From: Desulfovibrio sp.
GTDB taxonomy: Bacteria > Desulfobacterota > Desulfovibrionia > Desulfovibrionales > Desulfovibrionaceae
Direction of reading: 5' to 3'
Assembly: GCA_020217165.1 (NCBI GenBank)
Contig: JAIWOE010000102.1
Location: 1 to 13,549 of the forward strand
DNA: 13,549 nt
The translations under genes and the position numbers were made by a program. A model generated the notes under the pieces. That model searched no databases, had not been told where the DNA came from, and saw only the letters and a list, made by a program, of their open reading frames with translations. Positions 1 to 12,297 of the stretch are shown here, piece by piece; position 1 is the first letter of the stretch, and each line of letters opens with the position of its first letter.

Positions 1-1401
1 CGCATCATGCAGGAGCTGGGCGAGGCCACGGGGGACAGGGGCCTGCAGCGGGCCGGGCTGCTGGCGGACATCACCGCCCAGGCCGAGGCCCTCACGCTGC
101 TGGCGAAGTCTGCGGAAGAATTTGACCTCATCCAGCGCCAGGCCACCCTGAAGGCCGCCCAGACCCGGCGGGACACGGCCGAGGATTTTGCCGAATACTG
201 GCGCGTGAGCATGGACGAGCTGGGGGCCATATCCAAGGCGGCCGGCGATCAGGAACAGGCCATCTGGGGCGAGGTGCTGCAGGAATGGCTGACGAATTCC
301 GCCACCATGGCCGCTGCGCGGGAGGCCGCCTATGGCCGGGTGATTGAGGCGGCGCAGGCTGCCGGCGATGCGGAGCTGGCCGTCATGGCCCAGGTGGCCA
401 GGGAATCCGCCGCCCTGGAGCGGCTGCAGGCCATCCAGCAGTACGGCGACCCGACTGCGGCGTTTTTGGCCCGTTTGTCCGAGGGCCTACGGGAGTATCA
501 GAGCGAGGCCACCAAGGCCCGGGAAGCGGCTGTCCAACTGGCGGACGGCCTGTTGCAGCTCAAGGCTGATGCAGAGTCCGCCCTGGGCCAGTTCGCCGGG
601 GATTGGGTGTACGGCTTTCTGACCGGGACGGCCACCGTGGAGGACGCCTGGGAAAACATGCTGGACAACATGGCTCGTGCGTTTTCCGACTGGGTAGCCA
701 GCCTGACCACGGACTGGACCAAGGACATCCTGGACATGGGCCTGTCACTGCTCAAGGGCGGGTTGTCCGGCCTGTTCAACTCCCATTCCCCCAACATCAG
801 CGCCCTGATCAATGCGCCCATCGTGGCCAAGGCCAAGGGGGATGTGATGGGCGCGCCCGGCCTATCTGCCTATCGCAACCGCATCGTGTCCTCCCCCACG
901 TTCTTCCCCTTTGCCACGGGCATTGGCCTCATGGGCGAGGCCGGCCCTGAGGCCATCATGCCCCTGCTGGGCGCTGCCGGGGCGCATCGCGTGCGGGCCG
1001 TGCTGCCCAATGGCCGGGAAGACGCGGTGGACCTGACCCGCACGGCGTCCGGGCACCTGGGCGTGCAACTGCCCGCGTGGCTGGCCAACGTGCAGCCCTG
1101 TGCCGAGGGCTGGGCGCCCCGCGTGCTCTCGCCGTCGCACACGCCCCTGGCGCCCCTGGCTCCCCTGCCCGACGTGCAGGCCGGCGTGCGATCTGGCGCG
1201 CAATCTGGCGGGTCCGTGAAGGGCGGGGATGGGGCGGCGGCTCCCGTCATGCACGTCACCGTCCACAACAACGCCGGGGCGGATGTGTCGGTGCAGCAGT
1301 CCGCTGACGGCATGAACTTCGATATTCTGGTGGAAAAGGTGGCGCACGGCATTGCAGGCCAGGCGCGCCGGGGCAAAGGCCCGTTTGCGGGGAGGTTGTA
1401 A
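1..1401 (+). CDS. Phage tail tape measure protein, C-terminal part (gene cut by window edge)
   Basis: The frame is open from base 1, so the first ATG in the window (base 7) is unlikely to be the true start; about 466 residues of a longer protein are visible. The first ~200 residues are Ala/Glu/Gln-rich and helical, as in the rod of tape measure proteins, which set tail length and are ejected with the DNA. A stretch around residues 195-255, counted from the ATG at base 7, resembles the lambda-family tape measure C-terminal domain (FAGDWVYGFLTG, then AWENMLDNMARAFSDW). The hallmark GLMGEAGPEAIMPL lies at 307-320. The tail end is Pro/Gly-rich and low in complexity. The stop TAA shares its last base with the next ATG, so the genes are probably translationally coupled. 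Confidence 0.9.
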   Translation, partial: RIMQELGEATGDRGLQRAGLLADITAQAEALTLLAKSAEEFDLIQRQATLKAAQTRRDTAEDFAEYWRVSMDELGAISKAAGDQEQAIWGEVLQEWLTNSATMAAAREAAYGRVIEAAQAAGDAELAVMAQVARESAALERLQAIQQYGDPTAAFLARLSEGLREYQSEATKAREAAVQLADGLLQLKADAESALGQFAGDWVYGFLTGTATVEDAWENMLDNMARAFSDWVASLTTDWTKDILDMGLSLLKGGLSGLFNSHSPNISALINAPIVAKAKGDVMGAPGLSAYRNRIVSSPTFFPFATGIGLMGEAGPEAIMPLLGAAGAHRVRAVLPNGREDAVDLTRTASGHLGVQLPAWLANVQPCAEGWAPRVLSPSHTPLAPLAPLPDVQAGVRSGAQSGGSVKGGDGAAAPVMHVTVHNNAGADVSVQQSADGMNFDILVEKVAHGIAGQARRGKGPFAGRL

Positions 1402-1793
1402 TGGCCCTGGTCCCCTGGCCCGCCACGCTCCCCCAGACCATCGCCTTTGAGTACGAGGGCGAGCCGGTCAATGGGCTGGCCGACGTGGAAGAGACGCGCA
1501 ATCGGCTGCGGCTGCGGACGTATCCCGAGGAGCGGTTTCCCTTCGTCTTCCCGCTGCTCACCGGGGCGCAATGGCGGGAGCTGCAACGGTTCGTGCGCGA
1601 AGACCTGCTGGACGGCTGCAGGCCCTTCAGTGCGCCGTGGTTGCCCCTCATGGGCTACACGCACCACTGTTGCCGGATGCTGGGGACGTTGCAGGGCGAG
1701 CACCTGCAAGGGGACTGGTGGCGGGCCACCATGACCGTGGAACTGATCGCCCTGCCGGTGATGACCAACGGCACGCCGTCTGTCTGGATGTAG
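1401..1793 (+). CDS. Minor tail protein, tail-tip module
   Basis: This encodes 130 residues. The start ATG overlaps the tape measure stop by one base, and GGAGG at 1391-1395 sits five bases upstream, so the start is secure. No catalytic motif, signal peptide or membrane segment is seen. A WPATLP N-terminus, a central stretch ending FSAPWLPL, and a beta-like ending (ATMTVELIALP) match by eye the first ~120 residues of the next gene, suggesting that the two are paralogous tail-completion proteins. The position just after the tape measure is where siphovirus distal tail or minor tail proteins (lambda gpM/gpL slots) are encoded. The structural role is inferred from context; the exact family is not identified. 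Confidence 0.72.
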   Translation: MALVPWPATLPQTIAFEYEGEPVNGLADVEETRNRLRLRTYPEERFPFVFPLLTGAQWRELQRFVREDLLDGCRPFSAPWLPLMGYTHHCCRMLGTLQGEHLQGDWWRATMTVELIALPVMTNGTPSVWM

Positions 1794-1801
1794 GAGCGCG
1801 C

Positions 1802-4800
1802 ATGGCAGTTACCTGGCCAGATTCGCTTCCCGCGCCCCTCAAGGGGGTGAAGGTGACACAGGGCGCCAACGTGGTGCGCATGAAGACGCAGTCCGGGCGG
1901 GACCGCGTGTACCGCTTCGGGGCGGGCGCGCCGGATCGCGTGGCCGTGCAGTTTCGGATGTTGCACGAGTTTGTGCCCCTGTTCCGGACCTTCTACCAGC
2001 TCACCTGCAACGGCGGGGTGAACTACTTTGCGGCCGCTTGGCTGGATGACCTCAACCTGCCCTATGCCGATCCCGTGGCCTGCTTCGGGACGTATCCCAA
2101 GCTGGCGGGCTATGGGCGGATTTATTCGGACTTCACTTGCACCTTGCTGGTGCGACCCCTGGCCGATGCGCCGGCAGACACCTTCTGGCCCCGCGTGGGG
2201 CCGGCGCCGCAGCCTCCCAAGGCCAACCCGGACACGGCCACGGTGGCGGAGAACGCCACGGTTTCCGGCAACGTGCTGGCCAACGATACGGACGATTCCC
2301 TGAGCCTGACCGTCTCCATGGTCAACGGCTCTGCGGCCAACATGGGCGTAGCCGTGGCCGGCAGCAATGGCGGCATCTTTACCATAAGGCCGGACGGCTC
2401 CTGGACCTTCGACCCCAACGGCGAGTTCAACGCCCTGGCGTCCGGCCAGAGCGCCACGACGCAGGTGGCCTACACGGCCTTTGACGGCATTTACGAGGAC
2501 AGCACCACGTTGACCGTCACCGTCACGGGCCTGTCCGTTGCGCCCACGGCGGGGGCGGATACCGGCAGCACCACGAAGATTGCGGCCACCTCCGGCAATG
2601 TCTTGACGAATGATACCGCCAACAGCGGCGGCGCCCTGACCGTGGCCCAGGTCAACGGCAGCGCCGCCAATGTGGGAACGGCGGTGGCGGGCAGCAATGG
2701 CGGGGTGTTCGTCATCAACGCCAATGGGGCCTGGACGTTCTCCCCCGGCAACAGTTTCATGGGGCTGGGGGAAGGCCAGAGCGCCACCACCAGCGTCACC
2801 TATGGCGTGGCCGAATACGGCGTGGTGGCCACCACGACGTTGACGGTGACGGTGCACGGCGTGACCGTGCCGACGGTGGTTACCGCGGACACCGGCGCTG
2901 TGAACGCGAATGGGGAGGCGCAGGGCAACGTGCTGACCAATGACAGCACCGGCTACGGCGCCCTGACCGTGGTGGCCGTGAACGGCAGCGCGTCCAATGT
3001 GGGCGTCCCTGTGGCCGGCTCCAATGGCGGTCTGTTCACCGTGAGTGCCAACGGCATCTGGTACTTTACCCCGCATGGCGAGTTCGACGGGCTGTTCCTC
3101 GGCCAGACCGCCACAACCCAGGTGACGTACACGGCCAGCAATGGCGATACCCAGGCCACCACTACGCTCACCGTGACGGTGACGGGGGTGAAAGAAAACG
3201 ATCCGCCGGTGACGAGCCCTGATGTGGTCACCACCACCAAACGGCTGCCCGTGACAGGCAACGTCCTGGACAACGATGAGGACGTGGAAGAGCTGACAGT
3301 CTCCATGGTCAACGGTTCTGCCGCCAACGTGGGCGTGGCCGTGGCCGGGACCAACGGCGGCACGTTCACCATTGAGGCGGACGGCACGTTCACCTTCAGC
3401 CCCAACGGCGAGTTCAACGCCTTGCTGGACGGCCAGAGCGCCACCACCAGCGTCACCTACCATGCCAATGATGGCATGTACGACACCCTGGGCACCCTGA
3501 CCGTCACCGTCCAGGGCGTGACAATTGTGCCGACGCTGACGGCGGATACGGGCGCAACGGATGCTGAAACCACCACCTCCGGCAACGTGCTGACCAACGA
3601 TGACGCCGGCTACGGCACGCTGACTGTGGTGGCCGTGGCTGGTGAATCCTCCAACGTCGGGGTGGCCGTGGCAGGCAGTAACGGCGGCATGTTCACCATC
3701 TACGCGGGCGGGGCCTGGTCCTTTGACCCCGCTGGCGATTTCGGCACGTTGTACGAAGGACAATTCACGGCCACGACGGTTACGTACACGGCAGCCAACG
3801 CAGACGCGCAGTCCCAGGCTGTTTTGACCGTGACCGTGGAAGGCGTGCTGACCAACGAAGCGCCGGTGGCGGTGGATGACACGGCGACCACCACGGAACT
3901 GGCTACGGCGTCCGGTAACGTGCTGACCAACGACAGCGACGAGGACGAAGACACGCTGACTGTCTCCAGGGTGAACGGCAGTGCCGACAACATTGGCGGG
4001 GAAGTGGCCGGCAGTGGCGGCGGGGTGTTCACCATTGCGGCCAATGGCGATTGGACCTTTGACCCCAACGGCGAGTTCAAGGCGCTGCTGTACGGCCAGA
4101 GTGCCACCACCAGCGTCACCTACCATGTGACGGATGGCATCGTGGAGTCCACGGCTACCCTGACCGTCACCGTGACCGGCACGCAGGACGTGACCCCGCC
4201 GACGGTGGCAGATGACACCGGGGCCTGCCTGAACACGGGAACCGCCTCTGGCAACGTGCTGGCCAACGATACGGACGCCGAAGGCGTGCTGACCGTCTCC
4301 CAGGTCAACGGCAGTGCCACCAACGTGGGCGTGGCCGTGGCCGGTAGTAGCGGCGGGGTGTTCGTGGTCAACGCCGATGGTGATTGGGCCTTTGATCCGA
4401 GCGATGATTTCGACACCCTGGCCACGGGGGCAACGGCCACCACCAGCGTCACGTACCATGCGTCCGATGGCGTGAACGAAAGCGAAGGGACGCTGACCGT
4501 GACGGTGGAAGGCGTGGAGTTCGGGTTCTCGGGCGTGCCGGTGAAGCAAGCCAACCCCGCCACGCTACCGACGGGCACATCCTACAGCTGCGCCTTTTCC
4601 CCTGATGGCAAGTACCTTGCGGTGGCGCACGGCAGTAGCCCCTTTGTCACCATCTATTCTGTCAGCGAAGCCGGGGTGTTTACCAAGATCGACAACCCCG
4701 CCACGCTACCGACGGGCACTGGCAGATGCTGCGCCTTTTCCCCGCACGATGGCGGGGTTCGCCTTGCGGTGGGGCACAACAGTAGCCCCTTTGTCACCAT

Positions 4801-4810
4801 CTACAAGTAG
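1802..4810 (+). CDS. Tail protein with seven VCBS/Ig-like repeats and two WD40-like propeller repeats
   Basis: This encodes 1002 residues. The ATG at 1802 has AGGAG at 1792-1796 five bases upstream; the longer open frame from 1571 overlaps the previous gene and is not used. Residues 1-~135 form a tail-tip domain similar in pattern to the preceding protein (WPDSLPAPL, NYFAAAWLDD). Residues ~141-903 hold seven repeats of ~105 residues, starting near 141, 248, 357, 468, 577, 686 and 798. Each shows SGNVLxND, then VNGSAxNVGxxVAGSNGG, then WxFxPxGEF, then GQSATTxVTY, then TLTVTVxGV, which matches VCBS/bacterial cadherin-like repeats. Residues ~916-1002 hold two propeller-type repeats (CAFSPDGKYLAV; SSPFVTIY). 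Such repeats usually extend adhesins and bind carbohydrate or partner proteins. The protein is probably displayed at the tail tip to aid host binding. Two blades cannot form a complete propeller. Confidence 0.85.
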   Translation: MAVTWPDSLPAPLKGVKVTQGANVVRMKTQSGRDRVYRFGAGAPDRVAVQFRMLHEFVPLFRTFYQLTCNGGVNYFAAAWLDDLNLPYADPVACFGTYPKLAGYGRIYSDFTCTLLVRPLADAPADTFWPRVGPAPQPPKANPDTATVAENATVSGNVLANDTDDSLSLTVSMVNGSAANMGVAVAGSNGGIFTIRPDGSWTFDPNGEFNALASGQSATTQVAYTAFDGIYEDSTTLTVTVTGLSVAPTAGADTGSTTKIAATSGNVLTNDTANSGGALTVAQVNGSAANVGTAVAGSNGGVFVINANGAWTFSPGNSFMGLGEGQSATTSVTYGVAEYGVVATTTLTVTVHGVTVPTVVTADTGAVNANGEAQGNVLTNDSTGYGALTVVAVNGSASNVGVPVAGSNGGLFTVSANGIWYFTPHGEFDGLFLGQTATTQVTYTASNGDTQATTTLTVTVTGVKENDPPVTSPDVVTTTKRLPVTGNVLDNDEDVEELTVSMVNGSAANVGVAVAGTNGGTFTIEADGTFTFSPNGEFNALLDGQSATTSVTYHANDGMYDTLGTLTVTVQGVTIVPTLTADTGATDAETTTSGNVLTNDDAGYGTLTVVAVAGESSNVGVAVAGSNGGMFTIYAGGAWSFDPAGDFGTLYEGQFTATTVTYTAANADAQSQAVLTVTVEGVLTNEAPVAVDDTATTTELATASGNVLTNDSDEDEDTLTVSRVNGSADNIGGEVAGSGGGVFTIAANGDWTFDPNGEFKALLYGQSATTSVTYHVTDGIVESTATLTVTVTGTQDVTPPTVADDTGACLNTGTASGNVLANDTDAEGVLTVSQVNGSATNVGVAVAGSSGGVFVVNADGDWAFDPSDDFDTLATGATATTSVTYHASDGVNESEGTLTVTVEGVEFGFSGVPVKQANPATLPTGTSYSCAFSPDGKYLAVAHGSSPFVTIYSVSEAGVFTKIDNPATLPTGTGRCCAFSPHDGGVRLAVGHNSSPFVTIYK
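2222..4510 (+). repeat. Seven in-frame VCBS-like repeats, about 315-321 bp each
   Basis: The coding sequence repeats a ~105-107-residue unit seven times. DNA-level echoes recur, for example GGCGAGTTCAACGCC near 2420 and 3410, and GCCACCACCAGCGTCACCTA near 2784, 3440 and 4104. Units 1, 4 and 6 resemble one another most (SMVNGSAAN, DPNGEFNALL), and units 3 and 5 also pair (GYGxLTVVAV), suggesting duplication of multi-unit blocks. Such an array can gain or lose units by recombination. Confidence 0.88.
4547..4807 (+). repeat. Two tandem copies of a ~141-147 bp propeller-blade unit
   Basis: A 27-base segment beginning CAACCCCGCCACG occurs at 4552 and again at 4693, an offset of 141 bases. CTGCGCCTTTTCCCC occurs at 4588 and 4729, the same offset. 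AGTAGCCCCTTTGTCACCAT occurs at 4634 and 4781, an offset of 147; the six extra bases encode two added residues in copy two. The high DNA identity points to recent duplication or to recent contraction of a longer array. Confidence 0.88.
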
Positions 4811-4816
4811 GAAGTC

Positions 4817-5293
4817 ATGGAATACTCCGCAGCCATGCGCGAGGCCTACGCCAACGCCACGCCGGCCACCTACTATGCCACCCTGGAGTTCAGCTGTGCG
4901 GACCTCACGGAGAGCATCAGGGTGGTGGACAGCGACCGGGAGCTTGTCACCGCAGACGCCGGAACCTTCGTGCCCGTGCATTTCGAGGTCTACCTGCCCG
5001 AGACGGAAGGCGGGGTGCGCGGGGAGCTGAAGATTGACGTGACCTGCCTGCCACGGGAAGCCATCGAGGCCCTGCGGGACATCTCCGGGGCCACCGCGCC
5101 CATCTACATCCAGTACCGGGAGTATTTGGCCCCGAACCAGGCGGCCAGCGCCTGGCTGCCCACGCAGCCCCAGGTGTCGGAGATTGTCCGCACCTTCACC
5201 GGCGTCACCATCACGGCCCGGCTGCCCGATCTGGTGGGCGCCAAGGGCCCGCGTCGGATGATGACCGCCGCCACCTTGCCGGGGGCGGTGTGA
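4817..5293 (+). CDS. DUF1833-type phage tail protein
   Basis: This encodes 158 residues. It starts six bases after the previous stop; AGGAAG at 4809-4814 is a close-set ribosome binding site. The protein resembles the DUF1833 family in length and pattern: it opens YSAAMREAYAN, has an early beta-rich half with FVPVHFEVYLPE, and a second half with PIYIQYREYL and ending in beta strands. The family is found in siphovirus-type tail-tip gene clusters between the minor tail gene and the NlpC/P60 gene, as here. No enzyme motif or membrane segment is seen. By position it probably helps form the baseplate or hub (the slot of lambda gpL). Its stop TGA shares one base with the next ATG. Confidence 0.8.
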   Translation: MEYSAAMREAYANATPATYYATLEFSCADLTESIRVVDSDRELVTADAGTFVPVHFEVYLPETEGGVRGELKIDVTCLPREAIEALRDISGATAPIYIQYREYLAPNQAASAWLPTQPQVSEIVRTFTGVTITARLPDLVGAKGPRRMMTAATLPGAV

Positions 5294-5709
5294 TGACCGC
5301 CTCCCCCCTTGTACACTGGTCCCGGCAGTACCTGGGCCGGCCCTGGACCACCGAACAGGACTGCCTGTGGTGGTTCCGCTTCTGGAGCCGGGAGCATTTT
5401 GGCCGGGACGTGCCGGATACGCTGGTGGACCATTCCAGGCTGGTGCAGAGCGCGGCCCGGATCATGGACGACAGACCCGGCGTGGCGGCGCACTTCGGCT
5501 ACCATCCCACGGACACCCCGCAGGAGGGGGACGCCGTGTTCCTCTCCCAGCGCCGGACCCCGCACCACATTGGCATGTGGGTGCTGCCCGGCGGGGAGCC
5601 GCACATCCTGCAGGCCGTGGAGCAGGCCGGCGTCATCTGCCCGGACCTGCTCACCTGTTCCGTGCATGGCTGGCAACTGAAAGGATTTTGGACCTATGGA
5701 CCACTGTAA
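5293..5709 (+). CDS. NlpC/P60-type cysteine peptidase of the tail tip
   Basis: This encodes 138 residues from the ATG at 5293; an in-frame GTG at 5290 is an alternative start, and the purine run at 5281-5285 serves either. NlpC/P60 features are present. The nucleophile is Cys24 in an EQDCLWW setting, a GDAVFL turn lies at 79-84, the catalytic His is His92 in HHIGMW, and the third polar residue is probably His104. These enzymes cut peptide bonds in peptidoglycan; tail-tip versions (lambda gpK slot) act in tail assembly or local wall digestion during DNA entry. No signal peptide is seen, which fits a structural protein of the particle. It overlaps the following gene by 14 bases. Confidence 0.8.
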   Translation: MTASPLVHWSRQYLGRPWTTEQDCLWWFRFWSREHFGRDVPDTLVDHSRLVQSAARIMDDRPGVAAHFGYHPTDTPQEGDAVFLSQRRTPHHIGMWVLPGGEPHILQAVEQAGVICPDLLTCSVHGWQLKGFWTYGPL

Positions 5710-8700
5710 GCCCGAGTGTGTGCAAGCCGAGCGGTTTCCGACCCTGGCCGAAGCCCTGAAAGACGGTCCTCGTGTGACCGTGGCCATGGAGTTCAACCCC
5801 CTGGCCCTGCGGCCCAACCCGCATGTGCAGGTGCTGGAAGACGGCCTGACCCCGAATCAGATCATCGCGCGTCTGGACCTCCAGTTCACCTTGCCCTTTA
5901 TTCTCATCGTGAACGAAGAGGCGGTGATGCGGGCGGATTGGGACACGCCGCTGCCCGCTGGCGCGGATTGCCGCTTTCTGGAGCTGCCACGCGGGGGCGG
6001 GGGCGGCAAATCCGACCCCCTGCGCGTGCTGGCGACGGTGGCTGTGGTGGGCGCCTCCATGATTGTGCCGTGGGCGTTTTCCCTGACGGGCATCACCGCG
6101 TCCCTGGTGGGCATGGGAATCATGGCCGGCGGGATGCTGGGCGTAAACTACCTGTTCCCGCAACGGGGCGGCTCTGGGGCCTTGGCCAGCGGCGGCACGT
6201 CCACGGACTCCCTTACCCTGTATTCCCTCACGGCCAACTCCAATGCCGTACGCCTGGGCCAGCCCTTTGTGGAGCATTACGGCCGCATGATCGTCTACCC
6301 GGACATGGCCATGGGCAGTTACGTGCGGGTGGAAGGCAATGATGTCTATATGTACTTCCTGGGCATCATCGGTGTGGGGCATTATCAGGTGGAGCGGATT
6401 TGCATCGCGGATACCCCCATCGGTGACTACACCGGGGTGCAGTTTAACATCCTGCAGCCCGGCGCTACGCCGACACTCTGCCCCGCGCTGGTGTACACGT
6501 CTTCGGAAATCTCCGGCCAGGAGATGGAAGATTACGACTGGATCACGGCCACGGTGAACCCCGCAGGCACAAGGATCCATTCCATCGAGTTTGACGTGGA
6601 ACTTCCCAACGGGCTGGTGGCCTATTCGGAACAGTCCGCCGTGCCCATGTTCTGGCGCATCGATGTGGCGGTGGAGGCCCGGGCCATCGATGACAACGGC
6701 GAACCGCTGACGGATTGGGTATCCCTGGCCGTGGCGCCCTTCATCTTCAACGTGACCATCCCCCTGCGTTTTTCCCACGCCTATCAGGTGCCGTTCGACT
6801 CGCCCCGTTGGCAGGCCAGGTTCCGGCGCACCGTGCCCAAGCAGAACAACAGCCTGTACGTGGAGACGATACGCCTGACGGGGTTGCGCGGCTATGGCGA
6901 CCCGCACCCCGACTATGGCGACGTGACCATGTTCGAGTGCAGGGTGAAGGCCTCGGAGCAGCTCAACGGCGACATCTCCCGGCAGATCAACATGGTGGCC
7001 ACGCGCTACCTGCCCATCGTCACGGCCACCGGCTTTGCCGACCAGTGGCAGCCGTCGCGCTGCCCCGTGGACGCGGCGGCGCACATGGTCACCAACGCCA
7101 ACATGGGCCGGCTGCCGCAGTCGGTGCTGGACTTCCCCTCCCTGTACGCCGTCAAACAGGAGCTAGCCGCCGCCGGCTATACCTTCGATTGGCGGGTGAC
7201 GTCCAAGGACTCCGTCATGAATCTCATCCAGAACCCGGCCCGCTGCGGGCGGTGCATTGCCTGCATGCCCGGGGGCAAATTCGTGCTGATCCGGGACAAG
7301 GTCCGCCCGGTCTCGTTCACGTTCACGGAAGACCACTATTCCGAGGAAGGGTTGACGGTGACGGACCTGCCGCGCACGGACGACGCCCCCACCTGCTACC
7401 TGATCCGCTACGTGAACCCGGTGACGTGGCAGGAGGAATCCGTCTACTGCTACGACGAGGACGGCAGTCAGGACAACCCCGAAGAAATTGACCTCATCGG
7501 CTGCACCTCTCGGCAGCAGGCCTGGGAAATCGGCATGTACCTGTACTGGGATGACCGGCACAACCGCCGCTCTGTGGAGTTTTCCTGCGGGCTGGAGGGG
7601 CACCTCGCCATGATCGGCAGTTGGGTGGAGGTGACGGACCTGGTGGGCGGGTGGGGCCAGTCCGGGCGCATCGCGGCCATCGACGGCAGCAAGATCTGGC
7701 TCTCGGAGCCCGTGGACTTTGAAGGCGCGTCTGGCGTCCTGTCCCTCATCTCCCCCGCCGGAGAACGCGCCGGCCCGTATGCCGTGTCCCCGTCGCAGGA
7801 TTCGGCCCATTGCGTCATCGACACCACCGGGGCGCTCCCCGCCTGGATTCGCCCGCAAACAACCCATCACACGGAGGCCACGCCCTATGCGTTCACGCCC
7901 GTGCATCGTCCCCTCATGCTCTCGCGCATCACCAAAATCTCCCACCCCAGCCGGGGGCGGGTCCGCATCACGGCCAGCGAGGTCAAGGAGCGCGTCTACA
8001 ACAACCCCGGCCCAGCCCCGCCCGTGAAGGCGATGGCGCCGAGGGGGAATCATGTCCTTTTCAGTCAGTTGACAGGGGATTTTGACGATGCGCTGTACGT
8101 GGGCGTGTTTACCCTCTCCTGGGGCACGTCCGTGGCGGCGGGCGAGGGGGTTGTTGCAGTTACCATAGAAGAGAGACGCCTGAACGCCTCTACCCTTGTG
8201 ACTTCTCTGCAGTTTGACCCAGCCGTACGGGCGCACACGTTTACAACCACATCCGGGGTCGCTTTTTCTGGGATTTATGTGGATTTGCGCTTGTTTGTTG
8301 GGGGTGTCGTCGTTGCACGATCAACGCAAGAGTATAATTACATTAAATATGTTGCCAGAAGCTCCGATTATGTACTCGCAGCGTTTCCGCACAGCGTCGA
8401 ATACCTGCCCAACTCCGTAGAGGTGTTTGTTTCTGGAGATGACTCGACCTGTCCGCTCCGGTGGCGCAGTGAATATGGTGGTGATCGCTGGCTGAACGTA
8501 GAAATACAGAGGAATGGCGTTTCCCAAATTGGCAAGGCAATCTACCCCGGAAAAAACACCGATGGCAGTAACGCAAGTGAGGCGAAGTTTACTATTGACG
8601 AAACCCATGTGGCAGTAGCCGGGTACAGTTGGGGTGATTCCTTCTTTTTGAAGGCGCAAGGCCGGTGGTCAGGGGATCGCACAATTGAGGGCACGTATGA

Positions 8701-9166
8701 ACGGTGCATTGCCGCGCAGAAGAGCCGGCCAGACTACTTCCCCATAACGCCACGATCTTCTGTACCTTTTGTGCGTAGTTTGACATATAGTGGTTCCGGC
8801 AAGGGCAATATTACCCTGGCTGGAACGAAACTCGCTAGCCAGATTAAATGGCGAGTTTATGGTACTGCTTTGGTAATGAGCACAATGGCGTGGAGGCCGA
8901 CCACCTTGGCGCGGGTGGAGGTGCATGCACAATACGGCGCCGTGAACTCGCTGCCGTTGATTGGGGGTCTGCCCCTTGTAGCTCTTTCGGCGGTGTATAA
9001 CCCCAACGTGGGCAGCACGGGCTTTATCCCCTATGACATGACCTTCAATATGCCACTGCCCAGCGCAGGGCAGGTGTTGTTCGTTTATGTCAAAGTGCGT
9101 GACTATGGGTTCCCCCTTGGGGCGGTTATCTGGTCCGCATACGCCTGGGCTACTCCACCGGCATAG
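5696..9166 (+). CDS. Tail tip / host-specificity protein, gpJ-like
   Basis: This encodes 1156 residues. ATG at 5696 lies inside the 3' end of the peptidase gene; AAGGA at 5681-5685 is ten bases upstream. Residues ~1-98 resemble a small beta-grasp-like segment. A glycine run (100-104) and a hydrophobic segment (~109-153) follow, as in lambda gpI, so this may be an I-J fusion. From ~165 the protein follows the gpJ type: SLTANSNAVRLGQPFVEHYG, then GVGHYQVERICI, then long beta-rich hub domains. The product would form the central tail fibre or tip that touches the host receptor. The distal ~270 residues are encoded by much more AT-rich DNA, suggesting a replaced receptor-binding region. The length is near that of lambda J (1132 residues). 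Confidence 0.85.
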   Translation: MDHCKPECVQAERFPTLAEALKDGPRVTVAMEFNPLALRPNPHVQVLEDGLTPNQIIARLDLQFTLPFILIVNEEAVMRADWDTPLPAGADCRFLELPRGGGGGKSDPLRVLATVAVVGASMIVPWAFSLTGITASLVGMGIMAGGMLGVNYLFPQRGGSGALASGGTSTDSLTLYSLTANSNAVRLGQPFVEHYGRMIVYPDMAMGSYVRVEGNDVYMYFLGIIGVGHYQVERICIADTPIGDYTGVQFNILQPGATPTLCPALVYTSSEISGQEMEDYDWITATVNPAGTRIHSIEFDVELPNGLVAYSEQSAVPMFWRIDVAVEARAIDDNGEPLTDWVSLAVAPFIFNVTIPLRFSHAYQVPFDSPRWQARFRRTVPKQNNSLYVETIRLTGLRGYGDPHPDYGDVTMFECRVKASEQLNGDISRQINMVATRYLPIVTATGFADQWQPSRCPVDAAAHMVTNANMGRLPQSVLDFPSLYAVKQELAAAGYTFDWRVTSKDSVMNLIQNPARCGRCIACMPGGKFVLIRDKVRPVSFTFTEDHYSEEGLTVTDLPRTDDAPTCYLIRYVNPVTWQEESVYCYDEDGSQDNPEEIDLIGCTSRQQAWEIGMYLYWDDRHNRRSVEFSCGLEGHLAMIGSWVEVTDLVGGWGQSGRIAAIDGSKIWLSEPVDFEGASGVLSLISPAGERAGPYAVSPSQDSAHCVIDTTGALPAWIRPQTTHHTEATPYAFTPVHRPLMLSRITKISHPSRGRVRITASEVKERVYNNPGPAPPVKAMAPRGNHVLFSQLTGDFDDALYVGVFTLSWGTSVAAGEGVVAVTIEERRLNASTLVTSLQFDPAVRAHTFTTTSGVAFSGIYVDLRLFVGGVVVARSTQEYNYIKYVARSSDYVLAAFPHSVEYLPNSVEVFVSGDDSTCPLRWRSEYGGDRWLNVEIQRNGVSQIGKAIYPGKNTDGSNASEAKFTIDETHVAVAGYSWGDSFFLKAQGRWSGDRTIEGTYERCIAAQKSRPDYFPITPRSSVPFVRSLTYSGSGKGNITLAGTKLASQIKWRVYGTALVMSTMAWRPTTLARVEVHAQYGAVNSLPLIGGLPLVALSAVYNPNVGSTGFIPYDMTFNMPLPSAGQVLFVYVKVRDYGFPLGAVIWSAYAWATPPA

Positions 9167-9350
9167 TGGGGGGAGAAGAGGCAACATCGGATATAAGGCG
9201 AACGGAGGCGCAGGCGGGGTGCTGGCACACCCCACCGGCCCGGTGGGCAAACACCGGACCACGGCCGGAACCGCTGCGCCATGAGGCCCAGAGCGAGACC
9301 CCGGGCGGCATGGACGTAGCAGGAACAGGCCAAACCCACAACCAGAACCC
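9167..9350 (+). promoter_or_regulatory. Non-coding leader between the tail tip gene and com, with competing GC-rich hairpins
   Basis: No gene is supported in these 184 bases. Two inverted repeats overlap: GGGGTG (9216-9221) with CACCCC (9228-9233), and CCCACCG (9231-9237) with CGGTGGG (9241-9247) around a GCC loop. They share 9231-9233, so only one can form fully at a time. Neither is followed by a T-tract, so simple termination is unlikely. No good sigma-70 promoter and no GATC site (the Dam site of the Mu mom promoter) was found. The cassette may be read from the late tail transcript. Confidence 0.45.
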
Positions 9351-9512
9351 ATGCAGGACATACGATGCGGACAGTGCAATAAACTCTTGGCCAAGGGCGA
9401 GGCCCTGAACCTCGCCATCAAATGCCCCCGCTGCGGGGCCATGCATCACGTGCGGGCCGCGAGCCCCAGCCCCGAGGCCCGAGAGGCCCACCAGGGGATA
9501 TCACGTGCATAA
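9351..9512 (+). CDS. com: Com-like zinc-finger translational regulator
   Basis: This encodes 53 residues. The N-terminal IRCGQCNKLL closely matches phage Mu Com, and the two CxxC pairs (Cys6/Cys9, Cys25/Cys28) are spaced almost as in Mu Com, making one zinc-binding site. Mu Com binds mom mRNA and exposes its ribosome binding site. ATG 9351 is the first possible start after an in-frame stop ending at 9284, since no ATG, GTG or TTG lies between. There is no Shine-Dalgarno sequence near it; the nearest AGGA is 26 bases upstream. Its last eight bases overlap the next gene, recalling the com/mom overlap in Mu. The downstream genes suggest that it controls a DNA-modification-type cassette. Confidence 0.85.
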   Translation: MQDIRCGQCNKLLAKGEALNLAIKCPRCGAMHHVRAASPSPEAREAHQGISRA

Positions 9513-9708
9513 CTCGAAGGAAACCGTCGAAATCGCCGCAGGCCACGGCCTGCCGCCCCTCCCCCCGGACGCGCCAGGCAGGCCCAAGGGCACGCGGTAT
9601 CGGGAACAGTTCGGGGTCATCGTGCTGTGCCGGGACGAAGCCGAACACCGGGCAGTCTACGAGGCCCTCACGGCCCAGGGCTACGCTTGCAAGGTGGTGC
9701 GCACATGA
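9505..9708 (+). CDS. Small unknown protein of the com cassette
   Basis: This encodes 67 residues and starts with GTG at 9505, inside the end of com; AGGGGA at 9493-9498 is six bases upstream and supports this start. No other in-frame start exists further in. The N-terminal third is Pro/Gly-rich (GLPPLPPDAPGRPKG) and probably flexible. The C-terminal half (FGVIVLCRDEAEHRAVYEALTAQGYACKVV) reads as strand-helix-strand. From memory it resembles a short motif at the end of some ParB-like or modification-associated phage proteins; this was not checked. The ATGA overlap with the ATPase-GNAT gene implies coupled translation and perhaps roughly matched amounts. It could be an adaptor or RNA/DNA-contacting subunit. 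The function is unknown. Confidence 0.7.
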   Translation: MHNSKETVEIAAGHGLPPLPPDAPGRPKGTRYREQFGVIVLCRDEAEHRAVYEALTAQGYACKVVRT

Positions 9709-10844
9709 ACATTCACATCCACCATCAATGCCCGGACTATGGCAGCTACCGCGCCGCCTGCGTCAAATCCCTGTTCAATGTGGCCGCGGGTAACGAATTC
9801 CAACTGGAGGCGGTGCTGCCCATCGAAGAGCCGGGCTGGCAGATCGGGCTTGTCGTCGGCCCATCGGGCTCGGGCAAGTCCTCCATTGGCCAAGCTTTGG
9901 CCAGGGCAGGCTTTGCCATGCACCAGCCCGGCGGTTGGCCAGAGGACGCGCCCATCATCGACGCCATCGCCCCGCAGGGGGGCTGGCAGGCCGTCACCGG
10001 GGCCTTGTCCGCCGTGGGCCTGGGCGGCGTGCCCGCCTGGCTGCGGCCCTACGGCGTGCTCTCCATGGGTGAGCGCTTCCGGGCCGAGCTGGCGCGCATC
10101 GTCAGCGAACGGCCGGAGCGTGTGGTCATCGACGAGTTCACCTCGGTGGTGGATCGCCAGGTGGCCAAGGCCGGGGCCTGCGCCTTTGCCAAGGCCTGGC
10201 GGCGCGGCCAGGGGCAGGTGGTGCTGCTGAGCTGCCATTACGACATCGCCCCGTGGGTCCAGCCGGATTGGCTGTTTGACACCGCCTCGGGCCAGCTCGC
10301 GCGGGGGCGACTTCAACGACCCGGCATTGCGCTGGAAATTCGTCAAACCGGCTGGGAATGGTGGCCGTATTTTGCGCCGCATCATTATCTGAACCTGCCG
10401 CACATGATCGCGGCCACCTGCTACGTGGGCTTTGTGGATGGCGCACCGGTGGCGCACCTGGCCGTGAGCACGCGCTCCCGGCACGAGGCCCGGGCCTGCC
10501 GGCTGGTGATCATGCCGGAATGGCAGGGCGTGGGCGTGGGGCTGCGGTTCCTGAACAGCGTCTGCGACCTCTGGCGGCGCGGTGAGAACCGCTACGGCCG
10601 GCCCATGCCCACGCTCTTTCACACCTCCCATCCCGGCCTGGCCGCAGCCCTGCGGCGGCATCCGGCCTGGTGCCAAGTCAGCGCCATGTTGCATGGCGGG
10701 AACAAGGCGCGGTCACGCGCGAGCATAGAGCGCAGTAGGGCCAAACGGGGCGATATGGGTGGCGCGACCGGTTACGGCGGCCATTTCCGAGCGGTGCAGG
10801 GGTTCCGGTACCTCGGGGAGTCGCCCAAGGAGGGCTGCGTATGA
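9705..10844 (+). CDS. ABC-type ATPase fused to a GNAT (Mom-like position) domain
   Basis: This encodes 379 residues from ATG 9705 (AAGGTGG at 9691-9697, ATGA overlap with the gene before). Residues ~25-205 form a compact ABC ATPase: Walker A GPSGSGKSS (52-60), signature LSMGE (119-123), Walker B VVIDE (140-144), D-loop SVVD (147-150), switch His178. There is no transmembrane part, so it is not a transporter. Residues ~220-345 look like a GNAT domain: HHYL (226-229), a strand pair VGFVDGAPVAHLAVS, then RLVIMPEWQGVGVGL (276-290), with the QxxGxG acyl-CoA loop. The HHY setting recalls phage Mu Mom, which uses a GNAT fold to modify adenine. The proposed role is ATP-dependent base modification on phage DNA (inference). 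An acetyltransferase acting on RNA or protein is the alternative. Confidence 0.8.
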   Translation: MNIHIHHQCPDYGSYRAACVKSLFNVAAGNEFQLEAVLPIEEPGWQIGLVVGPSGSGKSSIGQALARAGFAMHQPGGWPEDAPIIDAIAPQGGWQAVTGALSAVGLGGVPAWLRPYGVLSMGERFRAELARIVSERPERVVIDEFTSVVDRQVAKAGACAFAKAWRRGQGQVVLLSCHYDIAPWVQPDWLFDTASGQLARGRLQRPGIALEIRQTGWEWWPYFAPHHYLNLPHMIAATCYVGFVDGAPVAHLAVSTRSRHEARACRLVIMPEWQGVGVGLRFLNSVCDLWRRGENRYGRPMPTLFHTSHPGLAAALRRHPAWCQVSAMLHGGNKARSRASIERSRAKRGDMGGATGYGGHFRAVQGFRYLGESPKEGCV

Positions 10845-11428
10845 ATGTGGTCATCATCGGGCAAGGCTGGCTGGCAGCCGAGACCCTGCAGGCCGTGGCC
10901 GCGCTTGCCGGCGTGACGGTGGCGGCCGTGTCCCCGGAGCACTCGGGCGACCGGTTTGAGGAGGCCGCCACCGGCCTTGGGGTGCCGGTGGAACCCGCCC
11001 TGGACCGGCTGCCGGCCTGCGAGGTCATGCTGGCCGCCCATTGCCACCGCTTTGTGCCTGCCGCGGTGCGGGCCAAGGCCTGGCATGGGGTGCTGGCCTA
11101 TCACCCGTCCCTCTTGCCGCGCCACCGCGGCCGGGACGCCATCCACTGGACCCTGGCCATGCGCGACCCCATCGCCGGTGGGACAGTCTATCAAATGGAC
11201 GACGGGGCCGACACCGGCCCCCTGGTCGCCCAGGCTTGGTGTCACGTCCTCCCCGGTGACACCCCGCAATCCCTCTGGCGTAGGGCCCTCGCCCCCATGG
11301 GCGTGCGCCTGCTGACAAAGGCGGTGCAGGATCTGGCGCGCCACGGGACATTGCCCCTGGAGGCGCAAGACGAACGCGCCGCCACCTGGGAGCCATCGTT
11401 GCGGCGGGTGGCGTTGCGGGAGGGGTAA
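10841..11428 (+). CDS. Formyltransferase-fold protein (Fmt/PurN N-terminal domain type)
   Basis: This encodes 195 residues. ATG 10841 overlaps the previous stop (ATGA), with AAGGAGG at 10827-10833. The fold signature is clear: an N-terminal GQGWLA loop, then HPSLLPRHRG (88-97), then GGTVYQMDDGADTG (113-126). Catalytic His88 and Asp124 match E. coli Fmt His108 and Asp144, but the Asn two residues before the His (Asn106 in Fmt) is Ala86. These enzymes move a formyl group from 10-formyl-tetrahydrofolate to an amine. It has only the catalytic domain, lacking the Fmt C-terminal tRNA-binding domain. Position at the end of the com cassette suggests that it adds to or builds a modified base made with the ATPase-GNAT protein. 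This is inference; a nucleotide or sugar substrate is possible. Confidence 0.82.
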   Translation: MNVVIIGQGWLAAETLQAVAALAGVTVAAVSPEHSGDRFEEAATGLGVPVEPALDRLPACEVMLAAHCHRFVPAAVRAKAWHGVLAYHPSLLPRHRGRDAIHWTLAMRDPIAGGTVYQMDDGADTGPLVAQAWCHVLPGDTPQSLWRRALAPMGVRLLTKAVQDLARHGTLPLEAQDERAATWEPSLRRVALREG

Positions 11429-11431
11429 TCT

Positions 11432-11474
11432 GAAAAAAGAGGGGGCGGCGTCACATCAGAATTCGCCGTCCCCT
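11432..11474 (-). terminator. Rho-independent terminator on the minus strand at the phage right end
   Basis: An 11-bp stem pairs 11440-11450 with 11464-11474 around a 13-base loop. Read on the minus strand the stem (with one A-C mismatch) is followed by CTTTTTTC (complement of 11432-11439), a standard terminator layout. On the plus strand the stem has only a G-U wobble but is followed by ATATCG, so termination there would be weak. It would stop transcripts that enter the prophage from the host side. Confidence 0.65.
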
Positions 11475-11501
11475 ATATCGTTACAGTGAACATGTCGCCA
11501 T

Positions 11502-11556
11502 GCGAAGTTGTGCCAAATCCCCCGCAAATTTGTGCCAAATCGCGCGCGAATTTACA
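11502..11556. repeat. Predicted prophage right terminus with two 18-bp transposase-site-like repeats
   Basis: GCGAAGTTGTGCCAAATC (11502-11519) and GCAAATTTGTGCCAAATC (11524-11541) match at 16 of 18 positions, with 12 identical bases in a row, and lie 22 bp apart (about two helical turns). The sequence then runs CGCGCGAATTTACA to 11556; read inward from the end it begins TGTAAATTCGCG. Tandem binding sites next to a TG/CA end are the layout of Mu-like transposon ends. No left end is in the window for comparison. An operator for the following transporter gene is the alternative reading. Confidence 0.6.
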
Positions 11557-11571
11557 TTTACGGCTGAAACA

Positions 11572-12297
11572 ATGTACGACGCGCTACTTCTGAGTTGCAT
11601 TGCCGGGTTCGGGTCATTTACACAGGGTTTGGCCGGTGTGGGGGTGGTGCTGGTAGCCCTGCCCCTCATGGCCCTGGTGCTGGATATCAAGACGGTCATT
11701 GTGCTGGTGAACCTGCTGGCCTTGAGCATCAACATCGTGCTCGGGGCGCAATTGTTCAAGCACATGCGGGCGAGGATTCTGGTGCCCATGCTCATCGGCG
11801 CCGCGCCGGGCATTCCCGCCGGCGTGCTGGTGCTCAAGGCCGTTTCCGCCGAAACCCTACAAATTATGCTGGGCCTAGTGCTGTTGGGATATTGCGCCTA
11901 TGCCCTGTCCGGCAGGCTGGTGCAGCGGGAAACCCGGCCCGTATGGGCGTATGTGGCTGGCTTTTTGGGCGGGTGCCTTGGCGGCGCCATCACGGCGTCG
12001 GGGCCGCCCATCATCATTTACACCGCAATGCAGCCCTGGACCAAGGACCGGCTCAAGGCCACCATGATTGGCTTTTTCCTGGTCACCACCATCGTCATCG
12101 CGGCCATGCATGCGGTTACGGGGATGATTACGCCGGCGGTACTGGCCGGCTATTGCGGCGCCTTCCCCGGCCTGGCCCTGGGCCTGTGGGGGGGGATGCG
12201 TTGCTATGGCCGCATCAGCGAGGTCCTGTACCGGCGCATCATCGTCTATCTATTGCTGGTGCTGGGAGTCGTGCTGCTGGCGAAGGGCGTCCAGTAA
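11572..12297 (+). CDS. TauE/SafE (TSUP) family membrane transporter
   Basis: This encodes 241 residues, nearly all hydrophobic, with about eight membrane segments (roughly 5-37 as one or two, 42-60, 68-90, 95-113, 124-143, 165-183, 187-208, 222-238). The N-terminal GSFTQGLAGVG and the motif SGPPIIIY (143-150) are typical of the TauE/SafE family, which exports sulfite, sulfoacetate or related organic anions; the substrate cannot be read from sequence. ATG 11572 was chosen because membrane segment one begins right after it. A longer frame from 11500 would begin in predicted phage DNA. No clear Shine-Dalgarno sequence is seen. The predicted prophage end is only 15 bases upstream, so native control is probably lost. 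It converges on the next gene with an 18-base gap. Confidence 0.83.
   Translation: MYDALLLSCIAGFGSFTQGLAGVGVVLVALPLMALVLDIKTVIVLVNLLALSINIVLGAQLFKHMRARILVPMLIGAAPGIPAGVLVLKAVSAETLQIMLGLVLLGYCAYALSGRLVQRETRPVWAYVAGFLGGCLGGAITASGPPIIIYTAMQPWTKDRLKATMIGFFLVTTIVIAAMHAVTGMITPAVLAGYCGAFPGLALGLWGGMRCYGRISEVLYRRIIVYLLLVLGVVLLAKGVQ

Follow-up and report, generated by a model that had tools for sequence, protein, structure and literature searches.

Which genes does a phage keep under Com control when mom is not among them? Mu carries com and mom together at its right end, and the Mom product is carbamoylmethyl-adenine. We address this question with a com-led cassette of four genes on the forward strand (positions 9351..11428) of a 13,549-bp stretch of Desulfovibrio sp. 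DNA, hereafter the window, which is one entire contig of a draft genome in 340 contigs. The cassette comprises com, a gene for a 67-residue protein that resembles the end of ParB-like proteins (the tail gene), a gene for an ABC ATPase fused to a GNAT acyltransferase (the ABC-GNAT fusion) and a gene for a formyltransferase-fold protein (gene 4), in that order, with successive overlaps of 8, 4 and 4 bases; the open reading frames (ORFs) lie where a first-pass annotation of the same DNA had placed them. From sequence comparison, we consider it probable that the cassette is a Com-controlled DNA-acylation module protecting phage DNA, in the slot that com-mom occupies in Mu. The switch and the slot are well supported, and the chemistry is a prediction.

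Com and its target hairpins

The first gene (9351..9512, +) encodes a 53-residue CxxC-CxxC zinc-ribbon protein, a predicted RNA-binding translational activator that aligns with Mu Com. It matches PF10122 with an E-value of 2.3e-20 and 72.2 bits (cut-off 22.9), and its PHROGs match, phrog_6417, is a translational regulator. In passages of PMC6483171, the zinc finger of Haemophilus sputorum Com was used for systematic evolution of ligands by exponential enrichment (SELEX) and for probing, and the Com target so defined is 5'-CC(N)2-3GAG-3', presented in a hairpin loop that a C-G pair closes. Two such hairpins lie in the last third of the window com gene. Hairpin 1 (9454..9466, +; GGGC-CGCGA-GCCC) presents the loop motif CCGCGAG on a 4-bp stem and is a predicted Com binding site in the RNA; hairpin 2 (9476..9488, +; GGCC-CGAGA-GGCC) presents CCGAGAG on a 4-bp stem, just 5' of the AGGGG/GTG start of the tail gene. 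Both fold as drawn when taken in isolation.

A Com-type hairpin with a stem of at least 3 bp occurs in 85 of 100 loci that carry com and the tail gene, against 8.4 expected from shuffles, and 48 of the 100 hold at least two, against 0.4 expected. Such hairpins are at chance level where the tail ends a ParB-length protein (3/39, 3.2 expected) and where the tail stands alone (1/19, 1.6 expected); these counts cover plus-strand loci with the tail pattern and at least 170 nucleotides upstream. The pairs flanking the hairpin 1 motif also covary: the second and third pair in 58 and 55 of 71 leaders, respectively, a level that 0 of 5000 column shuffles reach. This test was anchored only on the SELEX motif (the first in each leader), leaves relatedness among leaders in place, and was made after a first test anchored on C-NN-GA alone, in which frames were mixed and most pairs were at chance. 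The motif lies in all three com frames (48, 15 and 8 leaders), which argues against a coding effect. Assignment of the cassette to the com-mom type of operon is well supported by these hairpins, with Com binding and activation as predictions.

Some properties of the leader speak against such control. Covariation at hairpin 2 was not significant in the 71-leader test, the folding energy of the 85-nucleotide leader is ordinary (z -0.68, 51 of 200 shuffles as good), and its centroid structure is without the two hairpins. The minimum-energy fold keeps both, with the tail gene's AGGGG and GTG lying in stems. RNAalifold, run on a gapped MAFFT alignment from which 20 of 96 leaders were dropped as near-identical, gave one weak hairpin only, and an Rfam search of positions 9200-11700 at E-values up to 1 returned a lone small nucleolar RNA match at chance level. 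We also observed that CACGTG occurs twice at 9446-9507, and the second copy includes the GTG with which the tail gene begins. These two copies pair with each other in the minimum-energy fold, which also hides AGGGG, resembling the translation inhibition structure of Mu, although its energy is ordinary and the centroid differs.

The genes that follow com elsewhere were read from a sample seeded with Com alone, the best 80 of at least 494 viral loci. Four duplicates were dropped, leaving 76 distinct loci, and six of these were without a downstream ORF of at least 150 amino acids, leaving 70 scorable. Slot identities were assigned by motif and Pfam, with every one of the 70 linked to a confirmed family member; in 6 of the 70, an overlapping ORF in the wrong frame was replaced by the frame holding the methyltransferase motif. 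A DNA-modification enzyme stands next to com in all 70 loci: 63 methyltransferases (38 N6/N4, 16 D12 and 9 C5), 2 Mom proteins and 5 ABC-GNAT fusions. Com loci without the fusion carry a Com-type hairpin in 66 of 68 cases, against 4.6 expected, and the same scan recovers Mu's own Com site at its known position. The DNA-modification role proposed in the first-pass annotation remains, on the target hairpins and the content of the com slot, the best reading of the cassette. Across these loci (L252-L331), a methyltransferase follows com far oftener (63/70) than mom does (2/70). From these sequences, Com looks like a general switch for the DNA-modification genes of Mu-like phages, of which the fusion may be one client; passages of PMC6483171 describe Com as the activator of mom.

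The recurring cassette, its fusion and its ParB tail

Relatives of the cassette were collected by seeding on the fusion and keeping the top 80 of its 506 viral relatives and the top 80 of the 438 in host genomes, and a further scan likewise kept the best 80 of 319; the resulting rates describe the relatives most like the window rather than the whole family. The 242 records include duplicates (the window twice, and contigs from both scans). Removal of identical fusions left 192, of which 146 have both flanks, and exclusion of loci found via gene 4 left 113 non-duplicate loci with both flanks (44 viral and 69 host-genome). The first-pass annotation had suggested looking for the four genes beside com in other genomes, and there they are: com and the small tail gene precede the fusion in 78 of the 113 loci, and gene 4 follows it in 95. 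Since the same order recurs among relatives, the four-gene order is not a matter of chance. A ParB-length open frame ending in the tail lies upstream in 22 loci, the tail alone in 12, and neither com nor tail in one, so that the small gene or its ParB-fused form is present in 112. The 22 are an upper bound for true fusions, as every open frame of at least 130 amino acids in a locus lacking com was placed in the class, a definition that overcounts (L176, L202 and L206 seem to be long frames that arose by chance). Single-ORF fusions of tail, ABC-GNAT and gene 4 were not found among the loci examined.

The annotation had also named, as evidence that would count against it, homologues occurring mostly without com or outside mobile elements. 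Neither is the pattern seen: all but one of the loci other than the 78 have the tail, either by itself or as the end of a ParB-length protein, and among 10 host-genome loci sampled from the 14 listed (one protein scanned for each), a tail, head, terminase or integrase gene lies close by in 8. The remaining two gave a phage DNA-binding family only and no match, respectively. In 348 genomes of the window's taxonomic order, searched with E-values up to 1e-30, the fusion occurs in 10 and gene 4 in 7; gene 4 directly follows a fusion at 9 of 9 places, and com and the tail gene precede at least one fusion copy in 9 of the 10 genomes, the exception being G009. The transposable Pseudomonas phage Komp_PAO1_1 has all four genes in the same order, and Porphyromonas phage011a has tail, fusion and gene 4, with com not found. 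The Komp_PAO1_1 com gene (19683-19931 in L001) is unannotated in the GenBank record.

The fusion (9705..10844, +), which overlaps the tail gene by 4 bases, is a 379-residue protein with an ABC ATPase at residues 1-204 and a canonical GNAT acyltransferase at about 206-372. In Pfam, ABC_tran lies above its cut-off and the GNAT models just below theirs. The Walker A, LSxG, Walker B DE and H-loop motifs and the GNAT QGxGxG motif are all conserved. The PHROGs match, phrog_11143 (E 1.1e-140), is of 'unknown function', and the family is large, with 6,933 of 7,999 scored candidates matched. Citing Iyer 2013, a passage of PMC7824862 predicts that an ABC ATPase-GNAT family acyl-modifies DNA and gives QAX98348.1 as an example; the window fusion shares 35% identity with that protein, from Aeromonas phage AsFcp_2, over 80% of the query. 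The fusion is a member of this predicted DNA acyl-modification family, with acylation of a base as the predicted activity. In view of that earlier prediction, the candidate new system of the first-pass annotation is not supported as new in the strict sense, and in the open-licence literature searched we recognised no description of the four-gene set. For QAX98348.1, PMC7824862 names Tenacibaculum phage pT24 in the passage concerned, and the record (L243) names Aeromonas phage AsFcp_2. PADLOC gave weak matches only, of which mad3 (E 2e-8) is restricted to the Walker B region of the fusion and was rejected. In G213 and G217 (L342, L345, L346, L349-L351), copies of the fusion consist of two overlapping frames, with the split at about residues 99-121.

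The tail gene (9505..9708, +) starts with GTG within the 8-base overlap with com. Its 67-residue product, which matches phrog_28816 ('unknown function') and which the annotation had left as an unknown, is a detached ParB C-terminal tail, by tblastn and profile comparison. In Gordonia phages, the fusion is preceded by a ParB-like protein whose C-terminus matches the last ~35 residues of the tail protein (tblastn, E 9e-6 to 2e-3); matches are weaker in Pseudoalteromonas phage SL25 (6e-3) and in Oenococcus phages (0.03-0.04), the latter with a partner annotated as DNA methylase. The tail profile is found in 235 of the 242 records, duplicates included, and one Cys is invariant in 40 of 40 aligned sequences. 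AlphaFold models the 45-residue core as one helix with no strands, with a predicted local distance difference test (pLDDT) score of 86.1. Pfam ParB_N matched three of five long forms tested, two of them above cut-off. A ParB-like gene lies directly before the fusion in a Gordonia phage and in 4 of 12 more distant phage records. We infer that the DNA-finding ParB part has been lost in Mu-like phages.

The Gordonia partner raises a further possibility, a modifying-restricting pair in which the ABC-GNAT protein marks DNA and a nuclease attacks DNA without the mark. Gordonia phage records annotate the ParB-like partner as a nuclease, and passages of PMC7824862 describe Mom domains fused to nucleases in jumbo phages. 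Scans of Pfam, PHROGs, NCBIfam and PADLOC found no nuclease family for the four cassette proteins, however, and the ParB part is absent from the window, which leaves such a pair highly improbable. In PADLOC, the Gordonia partner matches a type II methyltransferase model, and in NCBIfam no curated family reached its cut-off for any of the four cassette proteins.

Gene 4 and the predicted acylation chemistry

Gene 4 (10841..11428, +), which overlaps the fusion by 4 bases, encodes a 195-residue protein of the type of the FDH (ALDH1L1) hydrolase domain, a predicted formyltransferase from 10-formyltetrahydrofolate (10-formylTHF) to a thiol, that of coenzyme A (CoA). It matches Formyl_trans_N (PF00551; E 3.6e-23) and, in PHROGs, phrog_9240. 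The single-domain formyltransferase fold of the first-pass annotation is borne out by PF00551; its placing changes, as gene 4 belongs with the FDH-type, thiol-acting enzymes, for which thiol transfer is the predicted reaction. The best PDB matches are FDH hydrolase domains (E 1.3e-28, against 3.2e-13 for the best FMT), the profile comparison behind the assignment gives 8.9e-43 against 9.8e-23, and the match to HypX is much weaker (E ~1e-10). Gene 4 is a single domain without carrier or aldehyde dehydrogenase domains and is not an FDH enzyme proper.

The active site bears on the group that takes the formyl. In the passages cited here, PMC4388273 holds that FMT, ArnA and GART depend critically on an Asn placed two residues ahead of the catalytic His; FDH has Ile104 there, and its I104A form retains ~50% activity and its I104N form <10%. 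The same passages suggest that His106, Ser108 and Asp142 of FDH might act as a triad, with the thiol taking the formyl. An H-P-S motif is found in 268 of 271 gene 4 relatives, the other three of which could not be scored (153 of 154 locus-derived and 115 of 117 database relatives were scored, and the two sets may overlap). The Asn is present in 0 of the 268, its position being taken by A, G, I, S or C; 267 of them retain the Asp, and H88, S90 and D124 of gene 4 are invariant in 13 of 13 aligned sequences. These counts disfavour a reading in line with the annotation, in which gene 4 would itself formylate an amine, either of a base or of an aminoacyl group put on the base by the GNAT domain. 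Formyl_trans_N is indeed common to the amine formylators PurN, FMT and ArnA, but with the Asn missing and thiol-acting FDH domains as the nearest solved relatives, we regard amine formylation as decidedly unlikely.

Excerpts of PMC8748788 and PMC6802093 place the formyl of ALDH1L1 on 4'-phosphopantetheine and propose formyl-CoA for HypX. Because CoA has the same phosphopantetheine thiol, we propose formyl-CoA as the product of gene 4 and as the GNAT donor, an assignment that we hold as tentative. In phage records, gene 4 accompanies 14 of 19 fusions with at least 51% identity and 0 of 32 with at most 41%; restricted to the close fusion clade, gene 4 would have joined later and altered which acyl group is used. 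The distribution also bears on a simpler role, in which gene 4 is a folate enzyme only, a 10-formylTHF hydrolase that aids phage nucleotide synthesis and takes no part in modification. PMC4388273 reports, in the passages cited, hydrolysis of 10-formylTHF by the FDH domain in the presence of a thiol, and gene 4 is missing from 18 of the 113 cassettes; it is nevertheless tied to the ABC-GNAT fusion at every one of its places in the order and, among phages, to the close clade of fusions, and a folate role alone is in our judgement unlikely. In phage Jace (L247), a relative with ParB and the fusion but without gene 4, the gene after ABC-GNAT (5065-5490) is annotated as aspartate decarboxylase, an enzyme of beta-alanine and CoA supply.

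In the acylation pathway that we favour, Com would open translation of the tail gene and, by coupling, of both enzymes. The tail protein, the detached ParB C-terminus, would dock on the ABC-GNAT protein, whose ABC dimer would spend ATP in holding or opening DNA while the GNAT domain takes an acyl group from acyl-CoA and places it on an exocyclic amine of a base. Gene 4 would transfer formyl from 10-formylTHF to the CoA thiol, supplying formyl-CoA and switching the donor from acetyl to formyl. Taken to its full extent, the pathway would yield the first known N-formylated DNA, with an FDH-like enzyme charging CoA, the ABC-GNAT protein transferring the formyl, Com hairpins timing it, Com acting as a general switch and the ParB tail as a portable docking piece cut loose in Mu-like phages; we offer this complete picture as a speculation that is rather unlikely to hold in every part.

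Several observations count against DNA acylation, or against its formyl version. We know of no modified nucleoside for any member of the family. Pfam gave no match of the fusion to the Mom domain (PF25680), and hhalign of Mom against ABC-GNAT gave a probability of 0.1%; Mom is likewise not listed in the VIA-align rows for the GNAT model, which excludes nothing. Eight of the 12 distant phage records show no annotated ParB-like neighbour of the fusion, though in one of the eight, SL25, the tail profile does find one. Gene 4 is lacking from about one locus in six, including 11 of the 78 with com and tail, and was undetected in the 32 distant records, from which it follows that the core can work without it. 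The formyl-CoA of HypX is itself a proposal without direct experiment in PMC6802093 and PMC8748788, as far as the excerpts go, and a passage of PMC8997388 describes N6-formyladenosine as an unstable intermediate; a formyl mark on adenine might therefore not last, or might sit on another base. Lastly, in structural comparison the GNAT model comes closest to acetyltransferases that act on proteins and small molecules, matching RimI, Ard1 and spermidine acetyltransferases well. Together with the phage GNATs that passages of PMC7824862 describe as thought to modify RNA polymerase, this resemblance would suit an ABC-GNAT enzyme that acylates protein or RNA, such as RNA polymerase or a ribosomal protein, in host takeover rather than DNA protection. 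The uniform content of the com slot, where five of the 70 DNA-modifying enzymes are the fusion itself, and the ParB-like partners and terminase neighbours of some phages point instead to DNA, and we judge the protein or RNA target quite unlikely.

The probable right end and related systems

Downstream of the cassette, two direct repeats with a 22-bp period (11502..11545, +) are probable transposase sites of a Mu-like right end. The first gene beyond them (11574..12297, +) is a host TauE/SafE-family gene (PF01925), and a same-genus homologue matches it from residue 5 onwards at 55% identity. We infer that the prophage ends at about 11573, the exact boundary being approximate, and the cassette would therefore occupy the right-end place where Mu has com-mom, in keeping with the first-pass view that mom has been replaced in the same slot. 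The label 'Mu-like' is given on account of com, the end repeats and the relatives; no transposase gene was found in the window. Upstream, positions 1..9166 (+) hold phage tail genes by PHROGs (tape measure, minor tail proteins, NlpC/P60 and a central fibre J-like protein). One tail-region protein (1799-4810) contains an insertion unusual for a tail gene, ~7 repeats of cadherin-like/bacterial Ig type (Cadherin_4, Big_9).

The analysis gives a large family that PHROGs lists as 'unknown function' both a particular predicted chemistry and a particular switch, and points to tractable phages where a modified base could be sought. Should formyl-CoA be the donor, a metabolite with one reported use before HypX, as a passage of PMC6802093 puts it, would gain a new role.

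Among known systems, Mu com-mom shares with the window a Com homologue placed ahead of a DNA-modification gene at a Mu-like right end, and the same hairpin target; the window cassette differs in being without mom, in having an ABC-GNAT enzyme unlike Mom by profile, and in its two extra genes. With the predicted ABC-GNAT family, as passages of PMC7824862 outline it, the window shares a homologous fusion (QAX98348.1), but its subclade has a partner of FDH type, and in the window the ParB tail is detached and control by Com is predicted. In Axumite-type Gordonia phages, gene 1 of the phage is ParB-like, gene 2 is ABC-GNAT, gene 3 is the formyltransferase and gene 4 is terminase, so that tail, fusion and formyltransferase follow in the same order as in the window; there the tail is fused to ParB, com was not found and the neighbour is terminase instead of a Mu-like right end. 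Com-type hairpins in this ParB-tail group are at chance level, unlike in com-led loci. The hydrolase domain of FDH (ALDH1L1) and the N-terminal domain of HypX, finally, resemble the window's formyltransferase-fold protein, with FDH as its best match and with His, Ser and Asp kept and no Asn, whereas that protein is a single 195-residue domain without the carrier, dehydrogenase or CO-forming domains of those enzymes.

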